Shown: piece by piece, positions 6,025-39,340 of the stretch | Layout of the letters: the number at the start of each line of letters is the position of its first letter | Numbering within the stretch: the first letter of the stretch is position 1 | From: Gammaproteobacteria bacterium | GTDB taxonomy: Bacteria > Pseudomonadota > Gammaproteobacteria > CAIRSR01 | NCBI GenBank assembly: GCA_963575655.1 | Contig: CAUYTY010000183.1 | Location: 1-39,340 of the forward strand | Direction of reading: 5' to 3' | DNA length: 39,340 nucleotides | The notes under the pieces: generated by a model | Seen by the model: only the letters and a program-made list of their open reading frames with translations | The model's database searches: none | What the model was told of the DNA's origin: nothing | Position numbers and translations under genes: made by a program

Positions 6025-6567
6025 TCAATCGCAGGACAACTCTTCCAGCGTTAACTGATGGTTGGTATACACGCACATATCAGCGGCAATGTGTAATGCT
6101 CGTTCGACGATGCTCCGGGCATCCAGTTCACTCCCCTCTAAGAGGGCTCGTGCCGCTGCTTGGGCGTAGGGTCCGCCAGAACCGATAGCCTGAAGCCCGT
6201 GTTCGGGTTCCAGGAGTTCGCCGGTACCGGAGATCATCAGGGAGGTGTTGCGATCCGCTACAAGCATCAGGGCCTCCAAGCGTCGCAGGGCACGGTCGGA
6301 GCGCCAGTCCTTGGCTAGTTCCACGGCGGAACGGGTAAGATTCCCCTGATGCTTTTCGAGTTTGGCCTCGAAGCGTTCATACAAGGTTAAGGCATCGGCG
6401 GTACTACCGGCAAAGCCAACCAGAACACGGTCATGGTAGAGACGGCGAACCTTGCGGGCATTGGTCTTAACCATGGTGCTACCCATGGATACCTGACCGT
6501 CACCGCCAATAACGACCTTGCCGGCACGACGCACTGACAGTATGGTAGTTCCTCGAAATTGTTCCAC
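6025..6567 (-). CDS. hslV: HslV, peptidase subunit of the HslVU protease
   Basis: HslV is the proteasome-like threonine peptidase that pairs with HslU. The start codon is GTG at 6567, with GAGG five bases upstream. The first residues MEQFRG are a short propeptide; cleavage would expose the N-terminal catalytic Thr of TTILSVRR. Further family segments are [32 protein letters not shown] and [13 protein letters not shown]. The 180-residue length is typical. It is the first gene of the hslV-hslU unit and is divergent from fxsA, with only 50 bp between the two starts, so the promoters of both must be crowded into that space. Confidence 0.97.
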
Positions 6568-6617
6568 TGGGGCCTCACGGTCCGATTCTTCAAGAAAAAA
6601 TTAAGGTAAGAACACCT

Positions 6618-7058
6618 ATGTCGCTCCTGCGACTTTTGCCCATTATCTTGCTAGTGCTACCCATCGCCGACATCGTCCTGCTGGTGAAGATCGGGGGCCT
6701 GATTGGAGTCTTACCCACTATAGCGCTAGTGTTACTGGCCGCGAGCGCGGGGGGGTGGTTATTACGTCGCCAGGGACTCGCCACCCTCGATCGAGTCCAG
6801 GAGAGTGTGGCACGGGGCGAGCTGCCCGCAGCACAACTTCTGGAGGGGATTGTACTGCTCCTCTCTGCTGCCTTGTTCATTGCCCCCGGTTTTCTTACCG
6901 ACTTGATTGCTGTCATTGGCCTGATTCCCCCCCTACGTCGTTGGCTGGTGGCGCGGGTGTTGCGTCACGGACTCCTGGGAATGGTAAGTCCCTCAGCCCC
7001 TAATCGACCTGGTACAGCACAAAAGACCATTGAGGGTGAATTCTGGCGTGATGGCTAA
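6618..7058 (+). CDS. fxsA: FxsA family membrane protein
   Basis: FxsA is a small cytoplasmic-membrane protein; in E. coli its overproduction relieves F-plasmid exclusion of phage T7. The 146-residue product has a hydrophobic N-terminal hairpin (about 1-50: LRLLPIILLVLPIADIVLLV, then a second segment ending GGWLLRRQG). A polar linker (LDRVQESVARGELPAAQLLEG) and a second hydrophobic pair containing APGFLTDLIAVIGLIPPLRR follow, which is the family signature. The C-terminal tail (about 120-146) is polar. The ATG at 6618 lies downstream of a TAAGGTAAG ribosome binding site. It is divergent from hslVU and converges with gpsA, leaving 9 bp between the stops. Confidence 0.92.
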   Translation: MSLLRLLPIILLVLPIADIVLLVKIGGLIGVLPTIALVLLAASAGGWLLRRQGLATLDRVQESVARGELPAAQLLEGIVLLLSAALFIAPGFLTDLIAVIGLIPPLRRWLVARVLRHGLLGMVSPSAPNRPGTAQKTIEGEFWRDG

Positions 7059-7067
7059 GGCCAGCAG

Positions 7068-8069
7068 CTATTCCGGTCGTAACGCCCGCGTCAACAGAGT
7101 TTGTACCGCCGAGCGGGGGTCGTGGTGCGCGTGGAGGACAGCGAGTACTTGGTTAGTGATGGGCATATCTACCCCCAATCGCTGTGCCAGGGTTGCTACC
7201 TCGCGGACTGTACCAAACCCCTCTACTACCTGACCGACGCTTATCAGTGCCTCGCTAACCCCCTGTCCTCGACCAATGAGCAACCCAAAGCGACGGTTGC
7301 GGGAGAGATCGTCGGTGCAGGTGAGTACTAAATCGCCGAGGCCAGCCAATCCCATGAAAGTCTCACGTCGTCCGCCTAGGGCCTCACCAAGACGCATGAT
7401 CTCCGCCAAGCCACGGGTGACGAGCGCCGCACGGGCATTGGCTCCAAAGCCCAGACCATCAGAGATCCCTGCCGCAATGGCCAATACATTCTTCACTGCT
7501 CCACCGACCTGCACCCCCACCACATCATCCGAGGTATAAGGTCGAAACCTGGCGTTGCGCAGACAACCGGCCAACCATTGGGCATAGTCCGGGAAGCGTG
7601 AGGCCACAGTGACCGCCGTAGGTAACCCCGCCACGACTTCCTTGGCGAAAGAAGGACCAGAGATTACGGCAGTAGGGGTCTCTGGTCCCAAAATCTCCGC
7701 AGCTACCTCGTGAAAAGGGCGCTGGGTACCGGGTTCCAACCCCTTAGTGGCCCAAGCCAGGCGTAGACCGTTGCTACGGCGCGCCGCACAGGCCTCCAGG
7801 GTGACCCGAAAGACGTGACTAGGCACCACCAGCAACACCTCGGGCGTGCTGGCGAGGACCGCATCCAGATCACTCGTCGGGAGGAGGTTGTCTGGAAACG
7901 GGGCGTCCGGAAGGTACCAAAGGTTGGCCCGGGCCTCGGCCAACGCACGCATTCGCGTCGGGTCTCGACCCCATAACCAGACCGGATGACCGTTATGAGC
8001 GAGCAGGATGGCCAACGCCGATCCCCAGGAACCGGCCCCCAGAATCGCGATGGGATTAGCTGTGCTCAT
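7068..8069 (-). CDS. gpsA: Glycerol-3-phosphate dehydrogenase [NAD(P)+] GpsA
   Basis: GpsA reduces dihydroxyacetone phosphate to sn-glycerol 3-phosphate, the backbone precursor of phospholipids. The 333-residue protein starts with the nucleotide-binding segment PIAILGAGSWGSALAILLA. It continues with GLRLAWATKGLEPG, VISGPSFAKEVVAGLPTAV, VGGAVKNVLAIAAGISDGLG (with the catalytic lysine) and AGLGDLVLTCTDDLSRNRRFG. All expected motifs are present. It is the last gene of the rhodanese-grxC-trx-secB-gpsA cluster, 16 bp after secB, as in enterobacteria. Only a short AAGG lies directly upstream of the start, so translation may be coupled to secB. Confidence 0.97.
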   Translation of the reverse strand: MSTANPIAILGAGSWGSALAILLAHNGHPVWLWGRDPTRMRALAEARANLWYLPDAPFPDNLLPTSDLDAVLASTPEVLLVVPSHVFRVTLEACAARRSNGLRLAWATKGLEPGTQRPFHEVAAEILGPETPTAVISGPSFAKEVVAGLPTAVTVASRFPDYAQWLAGCLRNARFRPYTSDDVVGVQVGGAVKNVLAIAAGISDGLGFGANARAALVTRGLAEIMRLGEALGGRRETFMGLAGLGDLVLTCTDDLSRNRRFGLLIGRGQGVSEALISVGQVVEGFGTVREVATLAQRLGVDMPITNQVLAVLHAHHDPRSAVQTLLTRALRPE

Positions 8070-8085
8070 CCTTGCGAGAGGTGGT

Positions 8086-8544
8086 TCATGCGTGGGCAGG
8101 GGCCGACTGTTGCTGGAGGCGTTGTAGGTAGACCGCGTCGAAATTGACCGGGGCTAGCAACAGCGGGGGGAATCCACCACGAATGGCCAGATCGGAAACT
8201 ACCTCACGAGCATACGGGAAAAGGATGGCCGGACAGAAAGCCCCGAGCATCTGGTCCAAGTGTTGTTCCGGGACCCCTGTGATCGTGAAAATGCCCGCTT
8301 GGTGGACCTCTGACAGATAGGCGGTGCGTTCTCCGACCTTCACTGTGGCGGTAATCGAGACCACTACCTCGAAATTCTGGGCGTCGAGGCTCTGTGCCGA
8401 TGTATCGATCTGTACATCTACCTCTGGCCGACGCTGGTCCATGAAGACCGTGGGCGAGTTGGGGGTCTCGAAGGAGAGGTCCTTGACGTAGAGTTTCTGG
8501 ATCAGAAACTGGCCTTCTGGACTTTTGGCATTCTCGTTGGCCAT
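8086..8544 (-). CDS. secB: Protein-export chaperone SecB
   Basis: SecB is a tetrameric cytoplasmic chaperone that keeps precursor proteins unfolded and hands them to SecA. Family segments are FLIQKLYVKDLSFETPNSP, the acidic/hydrophobic middle including EVVVSITATVKVG, and the signature HLDQMLGAFCPAILFPYARE followed by VSDLAIRGGFPPLLLAPVNF. I take ATG 8544 (MANENAKSPEG) rather than the upstream GTG at 8553; neither has a clear ribosome binding site. The 152-residue length is typical of the family. Its neighbours (grxC, a thioredoxin, gpsA) follow the classical gammaproteobacterial order with the thioredoxin added. Confidence 0.96.
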   Translation of the reverse strand: MANENAKSPEGQFLIQKLYVKDLSFETPNSPTVFMDQRRPEVDVQIDTSAQSLDAQNFEVVVSITATVKVGERTAYLSEVHQAGIFTITGVPEQHLDQMLGAFCPAILFPYAREVVSDLAIRGGFPPLLLAPVNFDAVYLQRLQQQSAPAHA

Positions 8545-8586
8545 GGTAGACACTTTTTGAGAGGGAAATGAGAGAGGAGGTCGTGG

Positions 8587-9021
8587 TTACAGGTACTGCC
8601 GAGTCCAAGCGAGAAGTCGCCCCAGATCCATGGCCCCTGTACTACGCGCCACCTCGTGTCCACCCCGAAACAATGCCAGGGTGGGAATACTGCGAATGCT
8701 ATGGCGGGCCGCCAATTTCTGCTCTTCCTCGGTGTTGATTTTGATCAAACGTACCTGTGGTTCCAAGGTACTTGCCGCCTGTTCAAAGGCCGGGGCCATA
8801 GAACGGCAGGGGCCACACCAGGGCGCCCAGAAATCCACCAACGTGGGTAGATCGCTACGACTCATATGCAGCGCAAAGCGCTCCTCGCTGAGGGATAGTG
8901 GATGTCCGGAAAACAGAGGCTTGCGACAACGTCCACAGAGAGGAGCTTCAGCCAATCGTTCAACAGGGATACGGTTGGTGCTGTCGCACTGCGGGCAGAC
9001 GACATGCACAACTTCAGGCAT
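8587..9021 (-). CDS. trxC: Thioredoxin 2-like (TrxC) zinc-ribbon thioredoxin
   Basis: A 144-residue thiol-disulfide reductase. The N terminus has a zinc-ribbon of two cysteine pairs (C9/C12 in VCPQCD and C29/C32 in LCGRCRK), which distinguishes thioredoxin 2 from thioredoxin 1. The thioredoxin fold follows with the active site WCGPC at residues 68-72, the conserved cis-proline segment SIRSIPTLALFRGG, and a normal C terminus. In E. coli trxC stands elsewhere; here it sits between grxC (20 bp upstream) and secB (42 bp downstream) on the same strand, so a monothiol/dithiol redox set is embedded in the secB operon. All active-site residues are intact. Confidence 0.93.
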   Translation of the reverse strand: MPEVVHVVCPQCDSTNRIPVERLAEAPLCGRCRKPLFSGHPLSLSEERFALHMSRSDLPTLVDFWAPWCGPCRSMAPAFEQAASTLEPQVRLIKINTEEEQKLAARHSIRSIPTLALFRGGHEVARSTGAMDLGRLLAWTRQYL

Positions 9022-9040
9022 GGTTCATTCCTAGTGAGAT

Positions 9041-9298
9041 TTAGGCCAAACCCAGTAGAGGATCGAGGCCACCTTGGGCGTCCAGGGCGGCGGTATCGTC
9101 ATAGCCACCCACATGATGGTCACCGACGAAGATTTGGGGCACCGTGCTGCGACCGCTCCGGGCCTCCATCTCGGCCCAGCGAGCTGGTTCTTGATCTACG
9201 CGGATTTCGTTGTAATTCACCCCCTTGCGCTTCAGCAAACGACGGGCTCGTTCGCAGTAAGGGCAAGTGGCGGTAGCGTACATGGTCACCTCAGGCAT
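9041..9298 (-). CDS. grxC: Glutaredoxin 3
   Basis: An 85-residue dithiol glutaredoxin that reduces protein disulfides and glutathione mixed disulfides. The active site CPYC is at residues 12-15, followed by ERARRLLKRKGVNYNEIRVD. The cis-proline segment is STVPQIFVGDHHVGGYDD, which forms the glutathione-binding groove. Length and motifs match GrxC. It lies 11 bp after the rhodanese gene and 19 bp before the thioredoxin gene, in one minus-strand operon. The glutathione it needs could be supplied by the gshA gene of this window. Confidence 0.95.
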   Translation of the reverse strand: MPEVTMYATATCPYCERARRLLKRKGVNYNEIRVDQEPARWAEMEARSGRSTVPQIFVGDHHVGGYDDTAALDAQGGLDPLLGLA

Positions 9299-9309
9299 AG
9301 CGAATTCCT

Positions 9310-9738
9310 CTAGCGTTTCTGTGTTAGGGGTAGGCTGGCGTTTTGCCAGGCGAGAAGCCCCCCTTCTAGGTTGTACACCGTTGCAAAGCCCTGCTTACGC
9401 AGGATCGAGCAGGCACGCCCCGAGCGACTACCACTACGGCAGGCGATGATGAGGGGGCGATTGCGGTACTTCTCTAGTTCTCTCATCCGCTCCATCAAGC
9501 GCCCTGCGGGGATATGCACCGCATGTAGGACGTGACCCTCCTTAAATTCGTTTTCCTCACGCACGTCCAAAAGCACTGCGTCTTGGTGGTTGATGAGGCC
9601 GGTGGCTTCCATCGGACCTACCCCCAAGTAACCCTGCGCGCGACGCGACAATGGCTCACCCATGATCATCCCCAGGACGACTGCCAGGGCGAGGAATAGT
9701 TCCCAATGGTTGACAACGAAACTGCTGTATTGTTGCAT
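9310..9738 (-). CDS. Membrane-anchored rhodanese-like protein (YibN type)
   Basis: A 142-residue protein with one N-terminal membrane segment (about 8-30, HWELFLALAVVLGMIMGEP) and a rhodanese domain (about 45-138). The active-site loop is IIACRSGSRSGRA, with the cysteine that would carry the persulfide. Other landmarks are AVLLDVREENEFKEGHV and the C-terminal YNLEGGLLAWQNA. I use the ATG at 9738; the frame is open upstream to 9942, but the extra 68 residues do not look conserved. The position directly before grxC matches yibN of E. coli. A sulfur-transfer role is inferred from the domain; the substrate is unknown. Confidence 0.9.
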   Translation of the reverse strand: MQQYSSFVVNHWELFLALAVVLGMIMGEPLSRRAQGYLGVGPMEATGLINHQDAVLLDVREENEFKEGHVLHAVHIPAGRLMERMRELEKYRNRPLIIACRSGSRSGRACSILRKQGFATVYNLEGGLLAWQNASLPLTQKR

Positions 9739-11407
9739 AGTATTGTTTTGTAAGGACGTTATAGGCAAGGGCGAGAGAGCTGCGGGCGAATCGAGGCGAT
9801 CGGTAGGACCAAGATGCGGGTGGTTAACACGCCTCACCGTGGCCACCCCAGTGCCGGCGGCGCGACAAGATACACGATCCGGTGGGTCCGACTCCAGCCC
9901 TAGAGGAAGGCGTTCAGAATTACCGTTGCTATCAAGTTTCAAATAAAAGTAAAGATTATTTCTAATTTACGACGCATTTAATTTCTAATTAATTGAGGTC
10001 CACTCTTGGTTTTCCATTCGTTGCCTCCGAGTGGAAAGAGGAAACTCTTGCGGGAGATGCGAATATCTCCTTTGTATACAACAGGTTACCTTGCATTCTC
10101 GAATTACTTATTTGTTAATCAACGAGTTACTGTGCGGTGCTATTTCGGGTGAGCAGCCGGCCTGGTTACCTGCCCGTCTTGCCCATTTTTGAGGGAAGAA
10201 TAATTCAAGGTAGATATTCAGATAATTATTCAAATCAATCACCGCAGTAGGATGGCTAAGAATGTCAGGGTGGCTAGGTAGGCAATTCAGATGGGATTTT
10301 CTCCTCCCGTCACTTTTTATGCGTACTTAGGGTAGGAAAAGGCGTGGGGTAAGATAGCGAAGAACTCCCTAGCCTTGTAAGTGAAGGCTGTACCAATCCT
10401 CGTCAACACTCCAACCAATAGTCATCAGGGGCATAACGATAAACCTGACGGCGTCTAACTAAAGGGCCGTGTTGGATGCCTCAAACAGAGTCCGTGGTCG
10501 AGGGCATTTCGACTACAACTAGCCCTATAAGTAAACTGATATTTTGGCAATATGGGAGAAACGTCCTCATTGGAATGGTGGTAATTGACTTGGTCGGGTT
10601 CTGGGTTATCCCTTCAGGAGGGCGAAGAGAATGGATGGCGATCACTAATAGTGTTCCATAGCAGAAAATCCCTCCCACAGTAGGTTGAAAGTGTCGCTAT
10701 TGCTATGTTGGTAAAGGTCGTTGCAGCGCTTATGGCTGTCGTTGTTGCAATAACTTTCGCCTTCTTCGAGTACCAACCAGCTCGCTCAGCTTCAAAGGCG
10801 GGGTAGGGGAAAAAGGCGCATGGATGGGGGGGCAAAGGTGCTGAAGTGCTTTCGAAACGGAGATTAGGTCTGTTGTTGCAGAACCAGTCCGTAACCATAA
10901 CCTTCCACCGTAGTGGCGCAGAAGTGCCAGTGATTATCGAGGTTTACTCTGGTTCACAGCAAGAAACCTAGTGCTAATATCGGTAATAAATTAGGTAGGT
11001 GGGGATTATAACCTTACTCATAAGTCGTTCTCTATAAGGGCGTTAAGGGGTGTTCAGTGCCGCAGGAAGGCGCTCAGAAAGGTCAGAATAATCGTGTAGA
11101 AATGGCGTGAGAGCGGGTATGGCTAGGTTTGGAATCAGTGGCAGCAATCCTTGGTTATCCGTCTGATCAAATTTGTCGCCATTGTAATGCTTGGCCAAAG
11201 ACTGAGTCGTTCATTGAAAAACGGCGAGAACCCATAGGATGGGGGCGGTCCAAGCGACAACCGACTCTCCTGCACAGCTTTGCTGTGCTCGGTTTTCGAT
11301 GAGATACCGTTTGGGAATGATGAAGTAATAAATGGGGGGGCACGGTAGTTTACTGTGGGGTTAAGACGGGGCATCTGGTTATATCTGTATCGCCCCCACT
11401 ACGCAAA
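9739..11407. other. Gene-poor region with broken open frames
   Basis: About 1.7 kb with no intact gene. I see stretches that read like damaged coding sequence. On the minus strand, a frame from 10678 to 10310 is interrupted only by TGA at 10483 and 10405, and includes RRRQVYRYAPDDYWLEC. On the plus strand, a frame from about 10685 to 10971 is interrupted by one TAG near 10803. Another plus-strand frame, 11023-11301, is interrupted by one TGA near 11102. None of them resembles a family I can name, and the opposite strands are partly open as well. This may be decayed accessory DNA; the weaker reading is chance. Confidence 0.35.
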
Positions 11408-31312: not shown

Positions 31313-33400
31313 TCAGCCTTCGTCCACGGCCTTCATGCTTAACCGGATACGGCCCTGTTTATCTACCTCCAAGACCTTGACCTTTACGACGTCACCCTCG
31401 GCGAGATTATCGCTCACCTTTTGGACACGCTCGTTGGAGATCTGGGAGATGTGTACCAAGCCATCACGACCGGGCAGGATAGTCACAAAGGCGCCAAAGT
31501 CCATGAGTTTGGCGACGCGCCCTTCGTATACTCGACCCACCTCCACATCGGAGGTAATCTCTTCGATACGCCGTTTGGCCTCTTGGCCGGCAGCGAAATC
31601 AACCGAGGCGATCTTGATAACGCCATCGTCGGTAATATCGATACTCGCCCCTGTCTCTTCGGTAATAGCGCGGATGGTTACCCCACCCTTACCAATAACA
31701 TCGCGAATCTTTTCCGGATTGATACGAATGGTAATAATCCGAGGGGCATATTCCGACATTTCCTCGCGGGGCTTGGTGATGACGGAATTCATTCGGGAAA
31801 GGATATGTAGCCGTCCTTCTCTCGCTTGAGCGAGGGCCTGCTCCATAATCTCCCGCGTAATGCCGTCGATCTTGATATCCATCTGGAGGGCAGTGACCCC
31901 TTCTGAGGTGCCTGCCACCTTGAAATCCATGTCACCGAGGTGATCTTCGTCGCCTAGGATGTCGGAAACCACGGCGAAACGGTCCCCTTCCTTGATCAGA
32001 CCCATGGCAATGCCTGCCACGGCGGACTGGATGGGTACACCGGCATCCATCAAGGCCAGAGAGGAACCGCATACGCTGGCCATAGAGCTAGAGCCATTGG
32101 ATTCCGTAATCTCGGAGACCACGCGCACGGTATAGGGAAACTTGGTCATGTCCGGCATGACCGCTAACACCCCACGCTTGGCCAGGCGACCATGCCCAAT
32201 TTCGCGACGCTTGGGGCTGCCAACCATACCGGTCTCGCCTACCGCATAGGGGGGGAAGTTGTAGTGCAGAATGAAGGGCTCTTTCCGTTCTCCTTCAATG
32301 GCATCGATGATCTGGGCATCGCGGGCGGTACCCAGGGTTGCCACCACCAAAGCCTGCGTTTCGCCACGAGTAAACAGGGCTGAACCGTGAGTACGCGGTA
32401 ACACCCCCACCCGTGCGGTGATAGGACGTACCGAGCGGGTATCGCGTCCATCGATCCGTGGCTTTCCATCTAGGATCTGGCCACGAACCACCCGGCGTTC
32501 CAACTTCTCGATGGCATTGCGTACGACATCGGCCGCAAAACGCGGGGAATCACCCGCACTAAGCTGCGCGAGGATCTCCGCATTAACCTGCGCTACTTGG
32601 TCCTGACGGGCGAGTTTCTCAGGGATCTGGTAGGCAGCCCGCAAGGACCCTTCCCCTATCTCAGCTACCGCCGCAGAGACTTCCTCGTTGCTGGCCGGAG
32701 CGGTCCAAGACCAGCGTGTAGGATTGACCTCAGCGGTCAACTCCTTGATCGCTTGGATAGCCGTCTGCATCTGGGCGTGACCATACATCACCGCCCCAAG
32801 CATCACTGCCTCAGACAACTCATTGGCCTCAGATTCAACCATCAGAACCGCTGTTTCCGTACCCGCCACCACTAAGTCCAGCCGTGAGTCGGCAAGCTGC
32901 TTGGCAGTAGGGTTGAGGACATATTGCTCACCGATATAACCCACCCGGGCAGCCCCTAAAGGCCCATTGAAGGGTAACCCGGAGACGGCCAATGCCGCAG
33001 AGGCACCGATCATGGAGGGGATATCTGGGTCAATCTCGGGATCCAGTGACATCACCGTAGCGACGACCTGGACTTCGTTGGTAAAACTCTTGGGAAAGAG
33101 CGGGCGCAAGGGTCGATCAATGAGGCGAGAGGTCAGGGTTTCCTTCTCTGTGGGACGCCCCTCACGCTTAAAGAAACCACCTGGGATCTTGCCGGCGGCA
33201 TAGGTACGTTCTTGATAATTAACTGTGAGCGGGAAAAAATCCCTACCTTCCAATGCTTCCTTATTGCCCACTGCGGTTACCAACACCACCGTATCACCCA
33301 GGCTGACGAGTACAGCGCCACTCGCCTGGCGTGCGATCTCGCCGGTCTCCAGGGTGACCGTGCTCGCACCATATTGAAACGTTTTCTTAATTGGGGTCAC
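31313..33400 (-). CDS. pnp: Polyribonucleotide nucleotidyltransferase (PNPase)
   Basis: PNPase degrades RNA 3' to 5' with phosphate and is part of the degradosome. The 695-residue protein starts at GTG 33400 with GAAGGAAG upstream. It has two RNase PH domains: the first about 1-210 with [20 protein letters not shown] and [12 protein letters not shown], the second about 310-540 with [20 protein letters not shown] and [17 protein letters not shown] domain follows (about 552-610, [20 protein letters not shown]), then an S1 domain (about 620-690, [15 protein letters not shown] and [10 protein letters not shown]). Nothing is missing. It follows rpsO by 41 bp, the classic order, and probably controls its own messenger there. 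Confidence 0.97.
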
Positions 33401-33441
33401 GACGAACTTCCTTCAAAGGGGTGAGGATCGACGGGACACCA

Positions 33442-33711
33442 TTACTTGCGCAAGCCCAGACGGGAGATAAGGGTATGGTAACGGTCGTCGCTCGAACGCC
33501 GTAGATAATCCAACAGTTTGCGGCGTTGGCTCACCAGACGCAGCAATCCACGGCGGGAGTGGTGGTCATGGACGTGGGTCTTGAAATGGCCAGTCAAGTG
33601 CTCGATACGAGCCGACAGCAACGCCACCTGGACCTCTGGTGAACCGGTGTCAGTGTCGGAACGGCGATGCTCCTGGAGGATCTGGCTCTTCTGTTCAGCG
33701 GAAAAAGACAT
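33442..33711 (-). CDS. rpsO: 30S ribosomal protein S15
   Basis: S15 binds the central domain of 16S rRNA early in small-subunit assembly. From the ATG at 33711 the product is 89 residues, the same length as in E. coli, and carries [40 protein letters not shown] and the C-terminal RLGLRK. The ORF opens further upstream at 33741, but GGAG about 10 bases before 33711 and the family length decide the start. It leads the rpsO-pnp pair. Between 33712 and 34168 lies its promoter region; I see no other gene in this spacer. Confidence 0.97.
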
Positions 33712-34168
33712 GTGGACAAAACTCCAAAGGGGGATGCTCAATGATTACCAGAAAACCACATACCCACAGATAATCAACAGGTTACAACATTTTATGCGGG
33801 GTTCTGGCAATTTGTACGATTAGACGATCTTCTGTGGCTCCCCCCCATTTTACGGGCGGACCATGGATTTGAACAAGCCGCCCATAGTGGGTGCAGGGCA
33901 AAAGCGTTAGAGTTTCAATGGGTTCTGGCGATTTCTATGGTCCTTTGCCTTTGAGTAGTGGGCGGGTTCCCTGTCTGGGGTTGTTGACATGGTTACGATG
34001 CAGAGAAATACATGCCAACATCGCTCACTGGGTGGCATTGCTTGCCGCAAGGCTTCGCACAAATTCCCCTTACGTACAAACTTCTACAATGCTGGAATTT
34101 GGAAACTAGAGGATCGTCAAATCTTCCTGCCTCCGGTCAAAGAGAGGGCACCGGGGGTAAGGTTTGGA

Positions 34169-34269
34169 GTTTCCGATAATAGACATTATCCGAAACCTAA
34201 AACCTCACCCCCCGGCCCCCTCTCCTGGCCAGGAGAGGGGGCCGGGGGGTGAGGTTTTTGATAATGTCT
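34169..34269. repeat. Nested palindrome with a perfect 56-bp core
   Basis: The core 34201-34256 is a perfect 28-bp dyad with no loop; the left half begins AACCTCACCCCCCGGCCCCC and its exact complement follows the TGGCCA centre. It is extended outward by AGACATTATC (34181-34190) and GATAATGTCT (34260-34269), with an 8-base insertion on the left. A further small dyad sits at 34169-34196. It lies between rpsO and the hybrid kinase gene, so it could separate the two transcripts. Confidence 0.85.
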
Positions 34270-34289
34270 AATGCCTAAAGTCTATTCCA

Positions 34290-35873
34290 TCAATGTCCCA
34301 GCAGTGCTTGAAGGTCTTTAAGGTCCACCGGCTTGAGCAGATGATGGTCGAAACCGGCACGTTGGGCGCGTTCTGAGTCGTGGTCCTGGCCATAACCGGT
34401 TACTGCCACCAGGCGTAGATTTCCCTGCCGATGCTCGGCACGTAAACGTTGTGCTACCTCATAACCGTCCATATCGGGCATGGCGATATCGAGAAATACG
34501 ATGTGAGGCATGAACTCTCGTACCGCATCCAAAGCCATGTGCCCATCTAAAACCACCCGTACATCGTGACCCAGCACTTCCAGTAATGCACCAAAGGAAA
34601 TGGCCACGTCTTCGTTGTCATCCACCACCAGAATACGGCTTGTTGGGGTACTCGCGTTGAGATGATTTAACGGAAATGCGGTGGACTCTTTTACTGGCGG
34701 CGTGGCCATGGGGAGACGCATCGTGCGTTCATTGCCCTGCCCTGGCCCTAAATTGACTGCCCGAGTCGTTCCACCATGGAGTTCCACCACACGTCGGACT
34801 ACAGCCAATCCGATACCCGGTTCCTTTTCCGGTTGCTCCGGATCTCCTGGGATCTCCCCGTAGAGATCGAAGATGCGTGGCAGAAGGTCGGGTGGAATCT
34901 CACGGCCATTGTCTCGTATTGCTATGACAATCTCCGTTTTTTCCTGGCGTACCACGAGTTGAATCCGTCCACCGGGGCCAGTGTAATAAGCCGCGTTGTG
35001 GATGAGATGTTCTAGGGCTTGAGAAAGACGTTGGATATCGGCATCCACCCAGAGTCCTTGGTCTTCCGGTTGGATTATTTCCAAGGTTTGGTGTTGGTCA
35101 TCCAACAGTGGTTGTGCCCATTCCATCGCCTGATTGATTACCTCTGTCAGCGGTAATCGATCCTTATTTAACTCGAATTGGCCGCTTTCCAGTCGTGCCA
35201 AGTCCTGTAATTCGTCGACCAAACGAGCAAATTGGCCGATCTGGCGGTCAATTACCGTTATGCACCAGCGTACCTCGGACTCTCCGGGTAGCTTGTGGTG
35301 CAAGAAGCGGGCGGCGTTGCGTACTGGCGAGAGATGATTACGGAGTTGGTGACCGATTGTGGCGAGGAATTCGTCTTTGCGCCGTTGGGCCTCGCTGTTT
35401 TGAGCAGCTTGGTGGCGCAGGGCAGCCTTCATTTCGACGTTGCGACGATTGGCCTCGGCTACGAGCCGCTGTGCCTGTTCTAATTCGGCGTTGCCCACTC
35501 TATCCCTTCCCTCAGAAGGGCGCCGGTTTTGGACAAGACGTAAGGACAGGGCTACGTAGTGTGGTGGGGAACCGTCATTAGATAGTGACCAGCAACGGAG
35601 ATCGGCGGGAATGCCGCCCGGAAGTGTGCAGGGGACCTCATCGTAAACGTCATCCCCCGCAAAACAACGCTCTAACGGAGACAGTATCTGTTTCAGAAGG
35701 GTGGGAGATTGGATATCGCGTAATGAGCGTCCCACGATGCTTGTGCTTCCCCCCAAAAGGCTAATGAAGGCGGCATTAGCGGTGTTGCAAATCAACCCGC
35801 GACCTACGATGCAAAGGGGATCGGGGAATTGCTCGAAAAATCGGGTATGGAGAGCGAGGCGACGGTCGGACAA
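34290..35873 (-). CDS. Hybrid histidine kinase with C-terminal receiver domain
   Basis: A 527-residue cytoplasmic kinase; there is no membrane segment. PAS-like N terminus about 8-115 (FFEQFPDPLCIVGRGLICNT), then a coiled coil (about 125-165). The HisKA box is FLATIGHQLRNHLSPVRN with phospho-acceptor H175. The ATPase domain shows LIHNAAYYTGPGG (N box), IRDNGREIPPDLLPRIFDLY and GIGLAVVRRVVELHGG. The receiver (about 405-525) has VVDDNED, FLDIAMPDMDGYE and the Lys in LLKPVD. The start is a TTG at 35873 without a ribosome binding site and the true start may lie further in. No output domain or partner gene is adjacent. A tRNA fragment marks the edge of accessory DNA 255 bp upstream. Confidence 0.92.
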   Translation of the reverse strand: MSDRRLALHTRFFEQFPDPLCIVGRGLICNTANAAFISLLGGSTSIVGRSLRDIQSPTLLKQILSPLERCFAGDDVYDEVPCTLPGGIPADLRCWSLSNDGSPPHYVALSLRLVQNRRPSEGRDRVGNAELEQAQRLVAEANRRNVEMKAALRHQAAQNSEAQRRKDEFLATIGHQLRNHLSPVRNAARFLHHKLPGESEVRWCITVIDRQIGQFARLVDELQDLARLESGQFELNKDRLPLTEVINQAMEWAQPLLDDQHQTLEIIQPEDQGLWVDADIQRLSQALEHLIHNAAYYTGPGGRIQLVVRQEKTEIVIAIRDNGREIPPDLLPRIFDLYGEIPGDPEQPEKEPGIGLAVVRRVVELHGGTTRAVNLGPGQGNERTMRLPMATPPVKESTAFPLNHLNASTPTSRILVVDDNEDVAISFGALLEVLGHDVRVVLDGHMALDAVREFMPHIVFLDIAMPDMDGYEVAQRLRAEHRQGNLRLVAVTGYGQDHDSERAQRAGFDHHLLKPVDLKDLQALLGH

Positions 35874-36127
35874 GGGTAAGTACCAGAATAGGGCTGCTTA
35901 GAAGGTCGGGGAGCAGGAGGTAACCGATAAGATGACAATTCGCCAACGTTGCCGGTCACGATGAGTGGAGTCCCTGCTGCTACATCAACCCCGTAGGTCG
36001 TCAGGTGATCGCAGCAGTGGAGTGGCAACTAGAGAGAGTGCGATGGTTCCGCGTGCGGTCATCACTCAAGCCGCCACACAAGGGCAAAACAAAGGGAAGG
36101 CAACGCTGCATAAGGCAATGATTTACT

Positions 36128-36172
36128 TGGTCGAGGTGAGAGGATTTGAACCTCCAACTCCTGTCTCCCGAA
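36128..36172 (-). other. 3' fragment of a tRNA-Pro(CGG) gene, probable attachment site
   Basis: Read on the minus strand, 36172-36128 gives the anticodon loop TTCGGGA (anticodon CGG), stem half GACAG, variable loop, T arm GGAGGTTCAAATCCTC, acceptor strand CACCTCG, discriminator A and encoded CCA. The 5' half is absent: the bases before the loop cannot pair with GACAG, and no CGAGGTG acceptor partner lies nearby. Such a fragment is what a tyrosine integrase leaves at one end of an element inserted at a tRNA 3' end. Core genes lie on its 3' side and accessory DNA on the other, as expected. Confidence 0.75.
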
Positions 36173-36362
36173 TGGGTTTCTGACCATATTACCCGCTTAA
36201 ACTTCATATTACTAGCTGCTGCTTTTTTCCTTGTAAAACAGGGAACAGCACCTTGTCTTACCTTACCAGGGGCTACCCTGATTTACCTTTGGTTGCTTGC
36301 ATGATTTACCCCGATCCGGGGGGCGTTCTTTTCAACCCCCTGTTAATAGCTGGCAACCCTCC
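36173..36362. other. Spacer beside the tRNA fragment, no gene
   Basis: No open frame of interest. The motif TGATTTACC occurs twice (36279-36287 and 36302-36310), with related CTTACCTTACC at 36257-36267. Short direct repeats of this type beside an attachment core can be arm sites of an integrase, but this is only a suggestion. Confidence 0.3.
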
Positions 36363-36420
36363 GCATTGCGAAACACAAAATCGGGATTTCCGATTAAGTG
36401 CTGGGTAGCAACTTGGGCTA
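36363..36420. repeat. Motif X plus small-element end, reverse orientation (copy F)
   Basis: On the minus strand this reads CCAAGTTGCTACCCAGCACT, then CGGAAATCCCGATTTTGTGT of motif X. It is the same order as at 39236-39283 (end block, then motif X) and differs by a few bases. No second terminal repeat is seen. The bases 36421-36583 hold nothing else. Confidence 0.65.
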
Positions 36421-36583
36421 ACTACTCATTTTCAGAACTTTGATCTTGCAAATCCGGTTTCTGATGCGTTGCCCCAGCCTGATATAAAATCGTACCGTTG
36501 GTGCTATCTGAAGTAGTTACAATTTCTCTTCTACTCTCTGATTTCCTAATCGTCCCCACAATCCCTCTCTTCCCATTTTTCAT

Positions 36584-37006
36584 TCATTCCCCATTCCCCG
36601 GCAACGCCCCAAAAACCTCCGCCGGATAACGGACAAGACTCCCGGTTTCCGGATCCACCGCCTGCCAGCCCAACCAGCGCCACGCCTCCCCGCCGGTTGT
36701 GATCACCCGGTTTTCGCTCAATTCCAGACAGGCCCAAGCGCTGTTAGGGAACGTCCGCCACTGCCGCAATTCCTTGCCACTGGTCACTTCCCACAAGCGC
36801 AGGCTGCTGTCCCCTGAAGATGACAGCAGGGTGCGTCCATCGGGGCTGAAGGCGCAGCCGTAAACCGGACCACCGTGACCGTTCAACGCTGCCAAGCGGA
36901 ATGGAACAGAGGGAAGGGAAAGGTGGCTTTCCGGCAGACACCGGGCATAACGCACATCGGTGCTATCCGACGCCAACCCTTCCGCACGTTCTAGCCCGCA
37001 ATGCAA
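36584..37006 (-). pseudogene. C-terminal relic of a WD40-repeat protein
   Basis: The frame encodes one complete WD40 unit, LNGHGGPVYGCAFSPDGRTL to SLRLWEVTSGKELRQW. It is followed by the conserved tail GGEAWRWLGWQAVDPETGSL and AEVFGALPGNGE, which reads as a proper C terminus. Upstream, ERAEGLASDSTDVRYARCLP is a linker-like segment, and the frame then meets a stop near 37020. No N-terminal effector or further blades are found. WD40 proteins of this type are usually several hundred residues long, with nuclease, caspase or NTPase modules in front, so this is a fragment left in accessory DNA. Confidence 0.7.
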
Positions 37007-37211
37007 CGCGAGTGATGCGGTTCATTCTTCACCACACCCTACGCGGCCTTTTCGTCCTCCCTCTCTCTCCTTGGGAAAATTGGGGAGGGGAAACGTGCCA
37101 GAAGGTAATTTTCTCACATTGGCAAATTTGTTTCTATGCAATATGGTATTTGCTTCGTGGGAGATTTTGCGAATAGATGCTTGTTCAACCCTGGAATAGA
37201 GAGGTATGTTG

Positions 37212-38066
37212 ATGAAAATGTTACGGTTATTATTTACCACACGTTGTGTCTGCTTGCTGGTGAGTTTGCTTCCTGTCGTTACCGAGGCGGTGCCAGCCTC
37301 CGTCGCTCAGGGGTCTCAAGTCCTTGCCGTTAAACGTAATCAAACTATTGGAGTGGTCACCATTACTCCAACTACTTTGACGATCGGTCTTATTGCTAAA
37401 GCCGAGGCTACGGCAACTTCCGAACTGCCGGTGAGTTTTAGCTCCAGTACGCCCGCTATTTGTGCCACTAGCGGGATGAATGGCAGTTTTGTTTCGGCCA
37501 TTGCTACCGGTACTTGTACGGTGGTTGCCAATCAAGCGGGTAATGCAAATTACAACGCGGCTCCACAGAAAACCAATAATGTCACCATTGGTAAAGTGGA
37601 TCAGGCAATCGGCACGATTACTTTCGAGCCAATTACCTTGAACGTTGCTGGGACCAGCATCGTGGTTGCTAATTCCACTGCTAATCTGCCGGTGAGTTTC
37701 AGTTCCACTACCCCAGCTATCTGCACAATCGGTGGACCCGATGGTGATACGGTAACGGGCGTTTCGGTGGGTAATTGTATCGTGGCCGCTACTCAGCCAG
37801 GTAACAACACCTACAGCGCTGCACCTCGGAAAACCAAAACCATCAGTATTACCAAACTTCCTCAGACGGTTGGTACGATTAGTTTTAGTCCGACAACTTT
37901 GGCGGTGGGGCGGCCGAATATCGTGAGCGCTACGGCGACCTCGGGATTGCCGGTAACTTTCACCTCGGGTACGCCAAATATCTGTGCGGTGAATGGTGGG
38001 ACGGTCACCAATATCTCGGTGGGCGCTTGCATGATTATTGCCATTCAAAGTGGCAATACTCAATAG
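37212..38066 (+). CDS. Secreted tandem Ig-like repeat protein, truncated at its 3' end
   Basis: A 284-residue protein with a signal peptide (about 1-26, LRLLFTTRCVCLLVSLLPVV core) and three tandem repeats of about 85 residues (starting near protein positions 43, 130 and 215). Each has the pattern QTxG-xIxFxPxTLxVG, LPVSFSSxTPAIC, VGxCxVxAxQPGNxxYxAAP. The third stops after AIQSGNTQ, before the YxAAP part, exactly where IS-derived sequence begins, so the reading frame has lost its C terminus. Whether more repeats or a surface anchor followed cannot be told. ATG 37212 has GAGAGG at the right distance. Such repeats form adhesin-like stalks; that role is inference. Confidence 0.75.
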   Translation: MKMLRLLFTTRCVCLLVSLLPVVTEAVPASVAQGSQVLAVKRNQTIGVVTITPTTLTIGLIAKAEATATSELPVSFSSSTPAICATSGMNGSFVSAIATGTCTVVANQAGNANYNAAPQKTNNVTIGKVDQAIGTITFEPITLNVAGTSIVVANSTANLPVSFSSTTPAICTIGGPDGDTVTGVSVGNCIVAATQPGNNTYSAAPRKTKTISITKLPQTVGTISFSPTTLAVGRPNIVSATATSGLPVTFTSGTPNICAVNGGTVTNISVGACMIIAIQSGNTQ

Positions 38067-38470
38067 ATATGCCCCTAAATATCAAAAGGTAACCTATTGA
38101 ACAATATAATGATTCCTTAGGTTGCAAAGGCCTGCGACCAATAAAATGACCTGATCGCCTATGTTCCTTATTCGGTTTCGGAATTTAATGGTTAAAATTT
38201 GGAAGTTTTTCATATCCCCAATCAAATGTTCTACAGCGACACGAACTCGGCTAACTACTCGATTTTCCTTTTTTTGTTTAGGGGTCAGAGTGGGATCTGG
38301 ATTATTTTTCGACTTTCTTGGCTTCTTGTGTGGAATATGGATATCCTTGAAAGTGGGGTACAAATCTTTAATTCCCTGATACCCCAAATCAACCCAAACC
38401 TCAATAGAAGAGAGTCCCGGTTGTTTTGAGTCTAACTCTTCTTTCAATAAAAGACTTGCCCCTAAATAAT
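38067..38470 (-). mobile_element. Fragment of an IS5-like (DDE_Tnp_4 type) insertion sequence
   Basis: Minus-strand frame to 38094 encodes the C-terminal part of a transposase: VWVDLGYQGI (catalytic Asp region) and VRVAVEHLIGDMKNFQILTI with the last Glu, then IRNIGDQVILLVAGLCNLRN. The N-terminal part with the first Asp is missing; the frame stops near 38485. TGCCCCTAAATA is found at both borders (38070-38081 and 38457-38468) as a direct repeat, which suggests deletion or insertion at that motif. Inverted terminal repeats are not seen. The element interrupts the Ig-like gene. Confidence 0.7.
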
Positions 38471-38687
38471 TTTTCTTATATGTTTAAATCTGTTACTCAA
38501 GACAATACGTTCGCCAAATTTGATGACCACAGGAAGTTAGAGGGTATACTTAGCGGCCACTAATCCAGCTGCTCGCAGGGGAGGGCACTGGTCTATTTTG
38601 ATTCTTGCTATAATCGATTGAAAATTATACACTATTCTATCTTAAGCTAAAATCATCCCATTTCCTGATAATTTGAAGAAGCTCTTA
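38471..38687. other. Spacer between the two broken insertion sequences
   Basis: No open frame of interest, no inverted repeat that would mark an IS end, and no promoter I would defend. A/T-rich compared with the rest of the window. Confidence 0.4.
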
Positions 38688-38969
38688 ATGTTGACCACAA
38701 TCCGCTGCCTTCATTGCAATTCTGAAGACTGCCGTATCTCCAAAACTTATAATACATCCAGCAACGGCAGCAGAAATCTTTATGAATGCAATAGCTGTCG
38801 GAATGTTTTTTCAGAAACAAAAGGAACATTTATGGAGAATATAAAAAAACCCATAAGCCTGATTGCAAAGGTACTCCAGGCGCGAAGTGAGGGAATTGGC
38901 CTTAACGCTGCCTGCCGACTTTTTGAAATAGCAAAAAATACGTTATTAGAAATTGAAAATAAGAAATAA
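38688..38969 (+). mobile_element. N-terminal fragment of an IS1-like transposase
   Basis: The frame (93 codons from ATG 38688) holds a zinc-ribbon CLHCNSEDCRISKT with a second pair YECNSCRNVFSE, then a helix-turn-helix segment LQARSEGIGLNAACRLFEIA. It matches the InsA-like start of IS1 family transposases, which should continue into a DDE domain. Here it stops after LEIENKK. Just downstream, in another frame, NKGRQNRKRGRKRSK looks like a basic transposase tail, so the DDE core may have been deleted. No ends are visible. Confidence 0.65.
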
Positions 38970-39016
38970 GAATAAGGGAAGACAAAATCGTAAGCGAGGC
39001 CGGAAACGTTCTAAAT

Positions 39017-39164
39017 AATCCAAGTTGCCACCTATTCAAAATTCGGGATCGCATCCAATCGTCCCCCCTCAATCCCCCCGTAAACGGGGGGAGGTCTGCG
39101 GTCTACTCCCTCCCCGTTTACGGGGAGGGCTGGGGAGGGGGCAAGTAGGTGGCAACTTGGGTTA
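39017..39164. repeat. Small TIR-bounded element, copy E (G/C-rich core)
   Basis: Left arm AATCCAAGTTGCCACCTATT (39017-39036) and right arm, complement TAACCCAAGTTGCCACCTAC (39164-39145), pair at 17 or more of 20 positions. The interior holds a large G/C-rich dyad around CCCCCCGTAAACGGGGGG and CCCTCCCCGTTTACGGGGAG. At 148 bp it is the longest copy and the best candidate for a complete element. A second block with motif X follows directly. Confidence 0.8.
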
Positions 39165-39165
39165 A

Positions 39166-39283
39166 GTAGCAACTCTAGCAATTCCCCGGGTTACAAAATA
39201 CAAAATCAGGGTTTTCGGTCAAGCATTAGTTAATTCAAGTTGCTACCTAGTGTCTGGCCGAAAACCTCGGTTTTATACACGTT
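39166..39283. repeat. Two opposed motif X copies around TIR-like ends
   Basis: GTAGCAACTCTAGCAATTCC and motif X on the minus strand (39183-39222) are followed by CAAGTTGCTACCTAGTGTCT and motif X on the plus strand (39248-39283). The two X copies therefore point away from each other with the TIR-like blocks at 39166-39174 and 39236-39250. The first half equals the block at 29693-29760. Confidence 0.7.
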
Positions 39284-39291
39284 CATACATC

Positions 39292-39340
39292 GTTCCCACG
39301 CTCCGCGTGGGAATGCATCCCGCGACGCTCCTGCGTCGCG
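39292..39340. repeat. Two small hairpins at the right edge
   Basis: TTCCCACGC...GCGTGGGAA (39293-39312) and CGCGACGC...GCGTCGCG (39321-39340) are perfect or near-perfect stems. The same pair of hairpin types is seen at 3989-4099. The array may continue beyond the window. Confidence 0.7.

Follow-up and report, generated by a model that had tools for sequence, protein, structure and literature searches.

A 45-base stretch of a gammaproteobacterial draft genome (4.2 Mb in 261 contigs) is very probably the displaced 3′ half of its tRNA-Pro(CGG) gene, left as the scar of an integrase-mediated integration. It lies in the window, the whole stretch of DNA analysed here, which is the complete contig C183 (39,340 bases). 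Features of this kind are known and very common; the present scar is old and degraded, and the element that left it can no longer be delimited. The features on which the argument turns are collected in Table 1.

Table 1. Features at and around the tRNA-Pro(CGG) fragment on contig C183.
Feature	Position	Strand	Basis or remark
tRNA-Pro(CGG) 3′ half, very probably a decayed attachment-site copy	36128-36172	minus	42/45 match to the intact gene, C221:1441-1517
Decayed, frameshifted tyrosine-integrase C-terminus	about 35948-36124	plus	DNA alignment to the G001 flank; tblastn
Hybrid histidine kinase (PAS-HisKA-HATPase-receiver)	34290-35873	minus	Neighbour of the scar
rpsO and pnp	31313-33741	minus	Apart from the kinase in relatives
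Stretch from the 5′ side of the fragment as far as the contig end	36173-39340		Dispersed repeats, WD40 relic, truncated repeat protein, IS pieces

The minus-strand letters of 36128-36172 are TTCGGGAGACAGGAGTTGGAGGTTCAAATCCTCTCACCTCGACCA. In a whole-genome search 42 of these 45 bases (93%, E = 5e-13) are identical to those of the single intact tRNA-Pro(CGG) gene, on contig C221, and all three differences are transitions; the second-best tRNA is tRNA-Pro(GGG), with 31 bases at 90%. The fragment spans the anticodon loop to the CCA, exactly where a sequence-only reading of this DNA had placed it. That reading had also held that identity to a tRNA ends inside the anticodon loop, and this is borne out: identity starts at TTCGGGA in the loop, and a search upstream of that end for a tRNA 5′ half found similarity no better than in shuffled sequence. 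Neither ARAGORN nor Rfam called a tRNA over the window, the fragment scoring too low for either. When the whole genome was scanned for a T-loop-to-CCA pattern, 39 matches were obtained (control count 8). The fragment was the sole match that was both clearly a tRNA 3′ end and outside an intact tRNA gene, and the other non-tRNA matches look like chance. The tRNA 3′ fragment is therefore confirmed as real. A group I intron or a split tRNA was rejected (no hidden 5′ half above shuffles, no Rfam intron), as was membership in a dispersed repeat, the repeated sequence starting only at 36309.

The evidence for an integrase comes from the DNA that follows the fragment on its 3′ side, which the sequence-only reading had taken for core genes. 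What stands directly against the fragment there is the decayed end of a tyrosine integrase, reading toward the tRNA 3′ end. Its recognition rests on a relative of the same family, G001, whose intact tRNA-Pro(CGG) gene has beside it a tyrosine-integrase remnant covering the catalytic C-terminal region (HNLRHTFA...LGHD...SRYT; Pfam Phage_integrase, 33.2 bits against a cutoff of 27.1). This coding sequence points at the tRNA and ends some 18 bases short of the tRNA 3′ end. The 3′ flank of the fragment aligns with this flank in register from the CCA, at 69% identity over about 178 nt (score 78; 117 identities, 53 mismatches, 17 gaps), so that the relic is homologous to, and placed identically with, its counterpart in G001. 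None of 2000 dinucleotide shuffles reached this score (mean 29, maximum 52), and it was equalled by 2 of 3000 random real stretches, drawn from a pool in which the G001 locus was also present. A comparison limited to the first 20 bases of the flank is not decisive; one over 100 to 180 bases is. At the protein level, tblastn of the G001 counterpart to the window returned segment 36028-36096 (E 7.5e-6) and a collinear segment in a different frame, 35948-36022, which is weak alone (E 1.5). An integrase reading toward the tRNA 3′ end has the normal orientation for integrated elements. The comparison with a sister species thus corrects the polarity of the supposed island, since the trace of the integrase lies on the side that had been read as core.

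The relic weighs on two explanations that dispense with site-specific recombination. One is that tRNA-Pro(CGG), whole or in part, was copied by segmental duplication and the 5′ half was then lost by a chance deletion. Repeats and IS are indeed abundant in this genome, and the order of genes varies among the four family members. Such an event is nevertheless quite improbable: the gene is interrupted in its anticodon loop, where integrases are known to act, the remains of an integrase adjoin the fragment, and the 3′ flanks of the fragment and of the intact copy in the same genome do not match. The other is retro-insertion, in which a cleaved tRNA 3′ half would have been copied to DNA by a reverse transcriptase. 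Its appeal is that one end of the fragment coincides with the anticodon loop and the other with the mature CCA terminus. We give it almost no credence, as the adjoining relic makes it unnecessary and the same ends arise by integrase action in two control systems described below (genome G007 and phage P24).

The position of the intact gene bears on a third explanation, that of the sequence-only reading, in which a single island, with the fragment as its attR, begins at 36173 and extends past the right edge of the window to an intact tRNA-Pro(CGG) gene with an integrase nearby. The polarity fits, as the element would lie on the 5′ side of the 3′ half; the DNA to the right looks accessory, and the fragment bears the flank that is found at the intact tRNA of G001. 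The window, however, is a complete contig, and the intact gene lies on another contig of the draft, at C221:1441-1517. There it stands behind ispB, as it does in G001, G003 and apparently G002. A PF00589 profile search gave no match on C183 or on C221, the latter covering 22 kb on the 3′ side of the tRNA. Reading the translations on that side, we recognised in order an IS66-like piece, an apparent toxin-antitoxin pair, sugar-type genes, yqeY and tsaD, and a type III CRISPR cluster. We then followed tsaD in the relatives. As tsaD is single-copy and lies 6 kb from the intact tRNA, C221 beyond its first few kilobases is not a mobile island. Moreover, the left side of the fragment opens with an integrase relic and not with core sequence. 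To the right, should the fragment be an attR, the bases 36173-39340 would represent the distal end of a later element; we found there no similarity to an integrase and recognised no phage, conjugation or other mobile-element core gene, so that the view of this side as an element has no positive evidence in what it contains. A single island of this kind is thus unlikely. The sequence-only reading was to be given up if the intact gene turned up at an unrelated locus lacking an integrase, and in this assembly it does. Its core idea, a scar of tyrosine-integrase insertion, nevertheless survives, because the integrase relic adjoins the fragment and is homologous to that of G001; it is the map of the island that lacks support.

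How the half came to be displaced may be pictured as follows. A tyrosine integrase would have recombined at the anticodon-loop site of tRNA-Pro(CGG). In an ancestor of the studied genome and G001, an element may have inserted with its integrase toward the tRNA 3′ end and then decayed to the integrase stub. In the studied lineage, a second site-specific insertion into the same tRNA most likely parted the older 3′ half and its stub from the 5′ half, which would have been completed by the 3′ half of the incoming element to give the copy now intact on C221. Later rearrangement mediated by IS and repeats would then have removed or scattered the element, leaving the scar. The stub stands beside the intact tRNA in G001 and behind the displaced half here, where the intact gene has another flank, and the simplest order is therefore insertion, decay, second insertion and loss. 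The presence of the G001-type flank at the fragment and its absence from the intact tRNA are also what displacement by a later insertion predicts. If there were indeed two insertions, the displaced fragment keeps the older neighbourhood and the intact gene carries the newer one. Against this scenario, no intact element can be traced, neither C221 nor C183 has an integrase gene, and these contigs cannot be joined to each other. We infer this order, together with the second insertion and the later disappearance of the element, at about even chances against its rivals: that the stub stems from an ancestral element, and was pushed off by a second one replacing the 3′ half of the gene, is in our judgement evenly balanced.

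One might suppose instead that the stub and the tRNA half belong together to one element in an attP-like junction, joined to unrelated DNA by a tandem array, by insertion at a secondary site or by rearrangement, with what is left of its body on the kinase side. The attP of phage P24 shows the same order: its integrase reads toward the 3′ terminus of a tRNA half that lacks its 5′ counterpart. The fragment and the intact copy also share two variable-loop bases that differ from those of G001 and G003, which means that the 3′ half at the fragment is not clearly the older one and counts somewhat against the order of two insertions given above. This possibility deserves to be kept in mind, but we hold it to be doubtful: the stub is a C-terminal piece within about 75 bp of a kinase that is vertically inherited, and its being common to G001 suggests vertical inheritance and not a fresh element. 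We prefer the two successive insertions, at the strength given above.

The neighbourhood of the scar has itself been reshuffled. Each of the three relatives from the same family (G001, G002 and G003) has a single clear orthologue of the hybrid histidine kinase, with no tRNA beside it. The kinase is 73% identical to its homologue in the metagenome-assembled genome 'uncultured Thiotrichales bacterium KR_bin-0880'. Its neighbours, named by reading the translations, are ruvB and pheA in G001, rluD in G002 and secDF and rluD in G003; here they are rpsO and the tRNA scar. The rpsO-pnp pair is not next to the kinase in any of the three relatives. With both the kinase and rpsO-pnp elsewhere in the relatives, this part of the genome must have undergone rearrangement, and no island is defined by what now flanks the scar. 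Between rpsO and the kinase, at 34178-34270, lies a palindromic dispersed repeat, copies of which pair as a 79-base inverted repeat; the same repeat also occurs on C221, where it follows the intact tRNA-Pro(CGG) at a distance of about 170 bases. On the other side of the fragment, the dispersed repeats at 36309-36525 recur in about 20 more places of the genome, at 73-93% identity and in several orientations.

The same half of tRNA-Pro(CGG) is in use by intact or mobile elements elsewhere, which is further evidence that an integrase made the scar. In G007, a genome of another family of the same class, an intact tRNA-Pro(CGG) gene has a broken integrase against its 3′ end and reading toward it, an intact integrase of 410 aa with an arm DNA-binding domain, and a second tRNA 3′ half 4.9 kb away. 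This island resembles the scar in the tRNA concerned, in the broken integrase at the 3′ end and in the second 3′ half a few kilobases off; unlike the scar, it keeps an intact tRNA, an intact integrase and both ends within 5 kb. The array is compact (C25:116000-131000, positions 6341-11356 of that stretch) and contains two cargo-like genes, with a PAS-type kinase-like gene just outside. In Alteromonas phage P24 (MK241539.2), a 43-nt tRNA-Pro 3′ half and the integrase gene are about 0.8 kb apart. In its attP, too, the integrase gene points toward the tRNA-Pro half, but this attP belongs to a phage genome and the integrase is complete and of another subfamily, giving no match to the G001 relic at E 1e-5. 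In Pseudomonas fluorescens Pf-5, a defective prophage is reported to have its integrase beside a tRNA-Pro (PMC2647930). tRNA-Pro(CGG) is a recurrent integration site in these gammaproteobacteria. A search of phages and plasmids gave nothing closely related to the integrase relic of G001 at 1e-5. In viral contigs and in the class, only partial integrase matches to the relic were obtained, none of them beside a tRNA-Pro (tRNAs were checked for the matches in the class only), and the exact core of the fragment did not occur in the viral contigs.

Set against the islands catalogued by Islander, in which a 3′ fragment accompanies 3760 of 3919 tRNA islands and the site is anticodon-centred in 2083 (PMC4383910), the present locus agrees in part. 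An intact tRNA gene and its cognate fragment occur in one genome, and the break falls at one of the known crossover subsites (anticodon loop or T-loop/acceptor junction), namely the anticodon loop. Like those islands, the locus thus has a displaced 3′ fragment, an anticodon-centred crossover and a PF00589-type integrase sequence toward the tRNA 3′ end. It differs from them in having no integrase gene inside an interval, a C-terminal relic, 3′ of the fragment, being all that is left, no delimitable element, and its intact tRNA on another contig; it is a scar only. Attachment-site remnants and partial tRNA genes have been described as pervasive (PMC9897764). The fragment is like those partial genes that are mis-called as tRNA genes in being a partial 3′ copy of a host tRNA such as marks an attR; the difference is that it scores below the level at which ARAGORN or Rfam would call it.

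Traces of mobile DNA near tRNA genes are found at other places in the studied genome as well. The IS piece at 38503-38951 of the window has a copy on contig C122, 99-100% identical, which follows tRNA-Pro(GGG) at a distance of about 1 kb. On contigs C58, C239, C22 and C184, tyrosine integrases or pieces of them lie 0.1 to 3.4 kb from other tRNA genes, and the genome may thus hold several tRNA-linked insertions besides the scar of tRNA-Pro(CGG).
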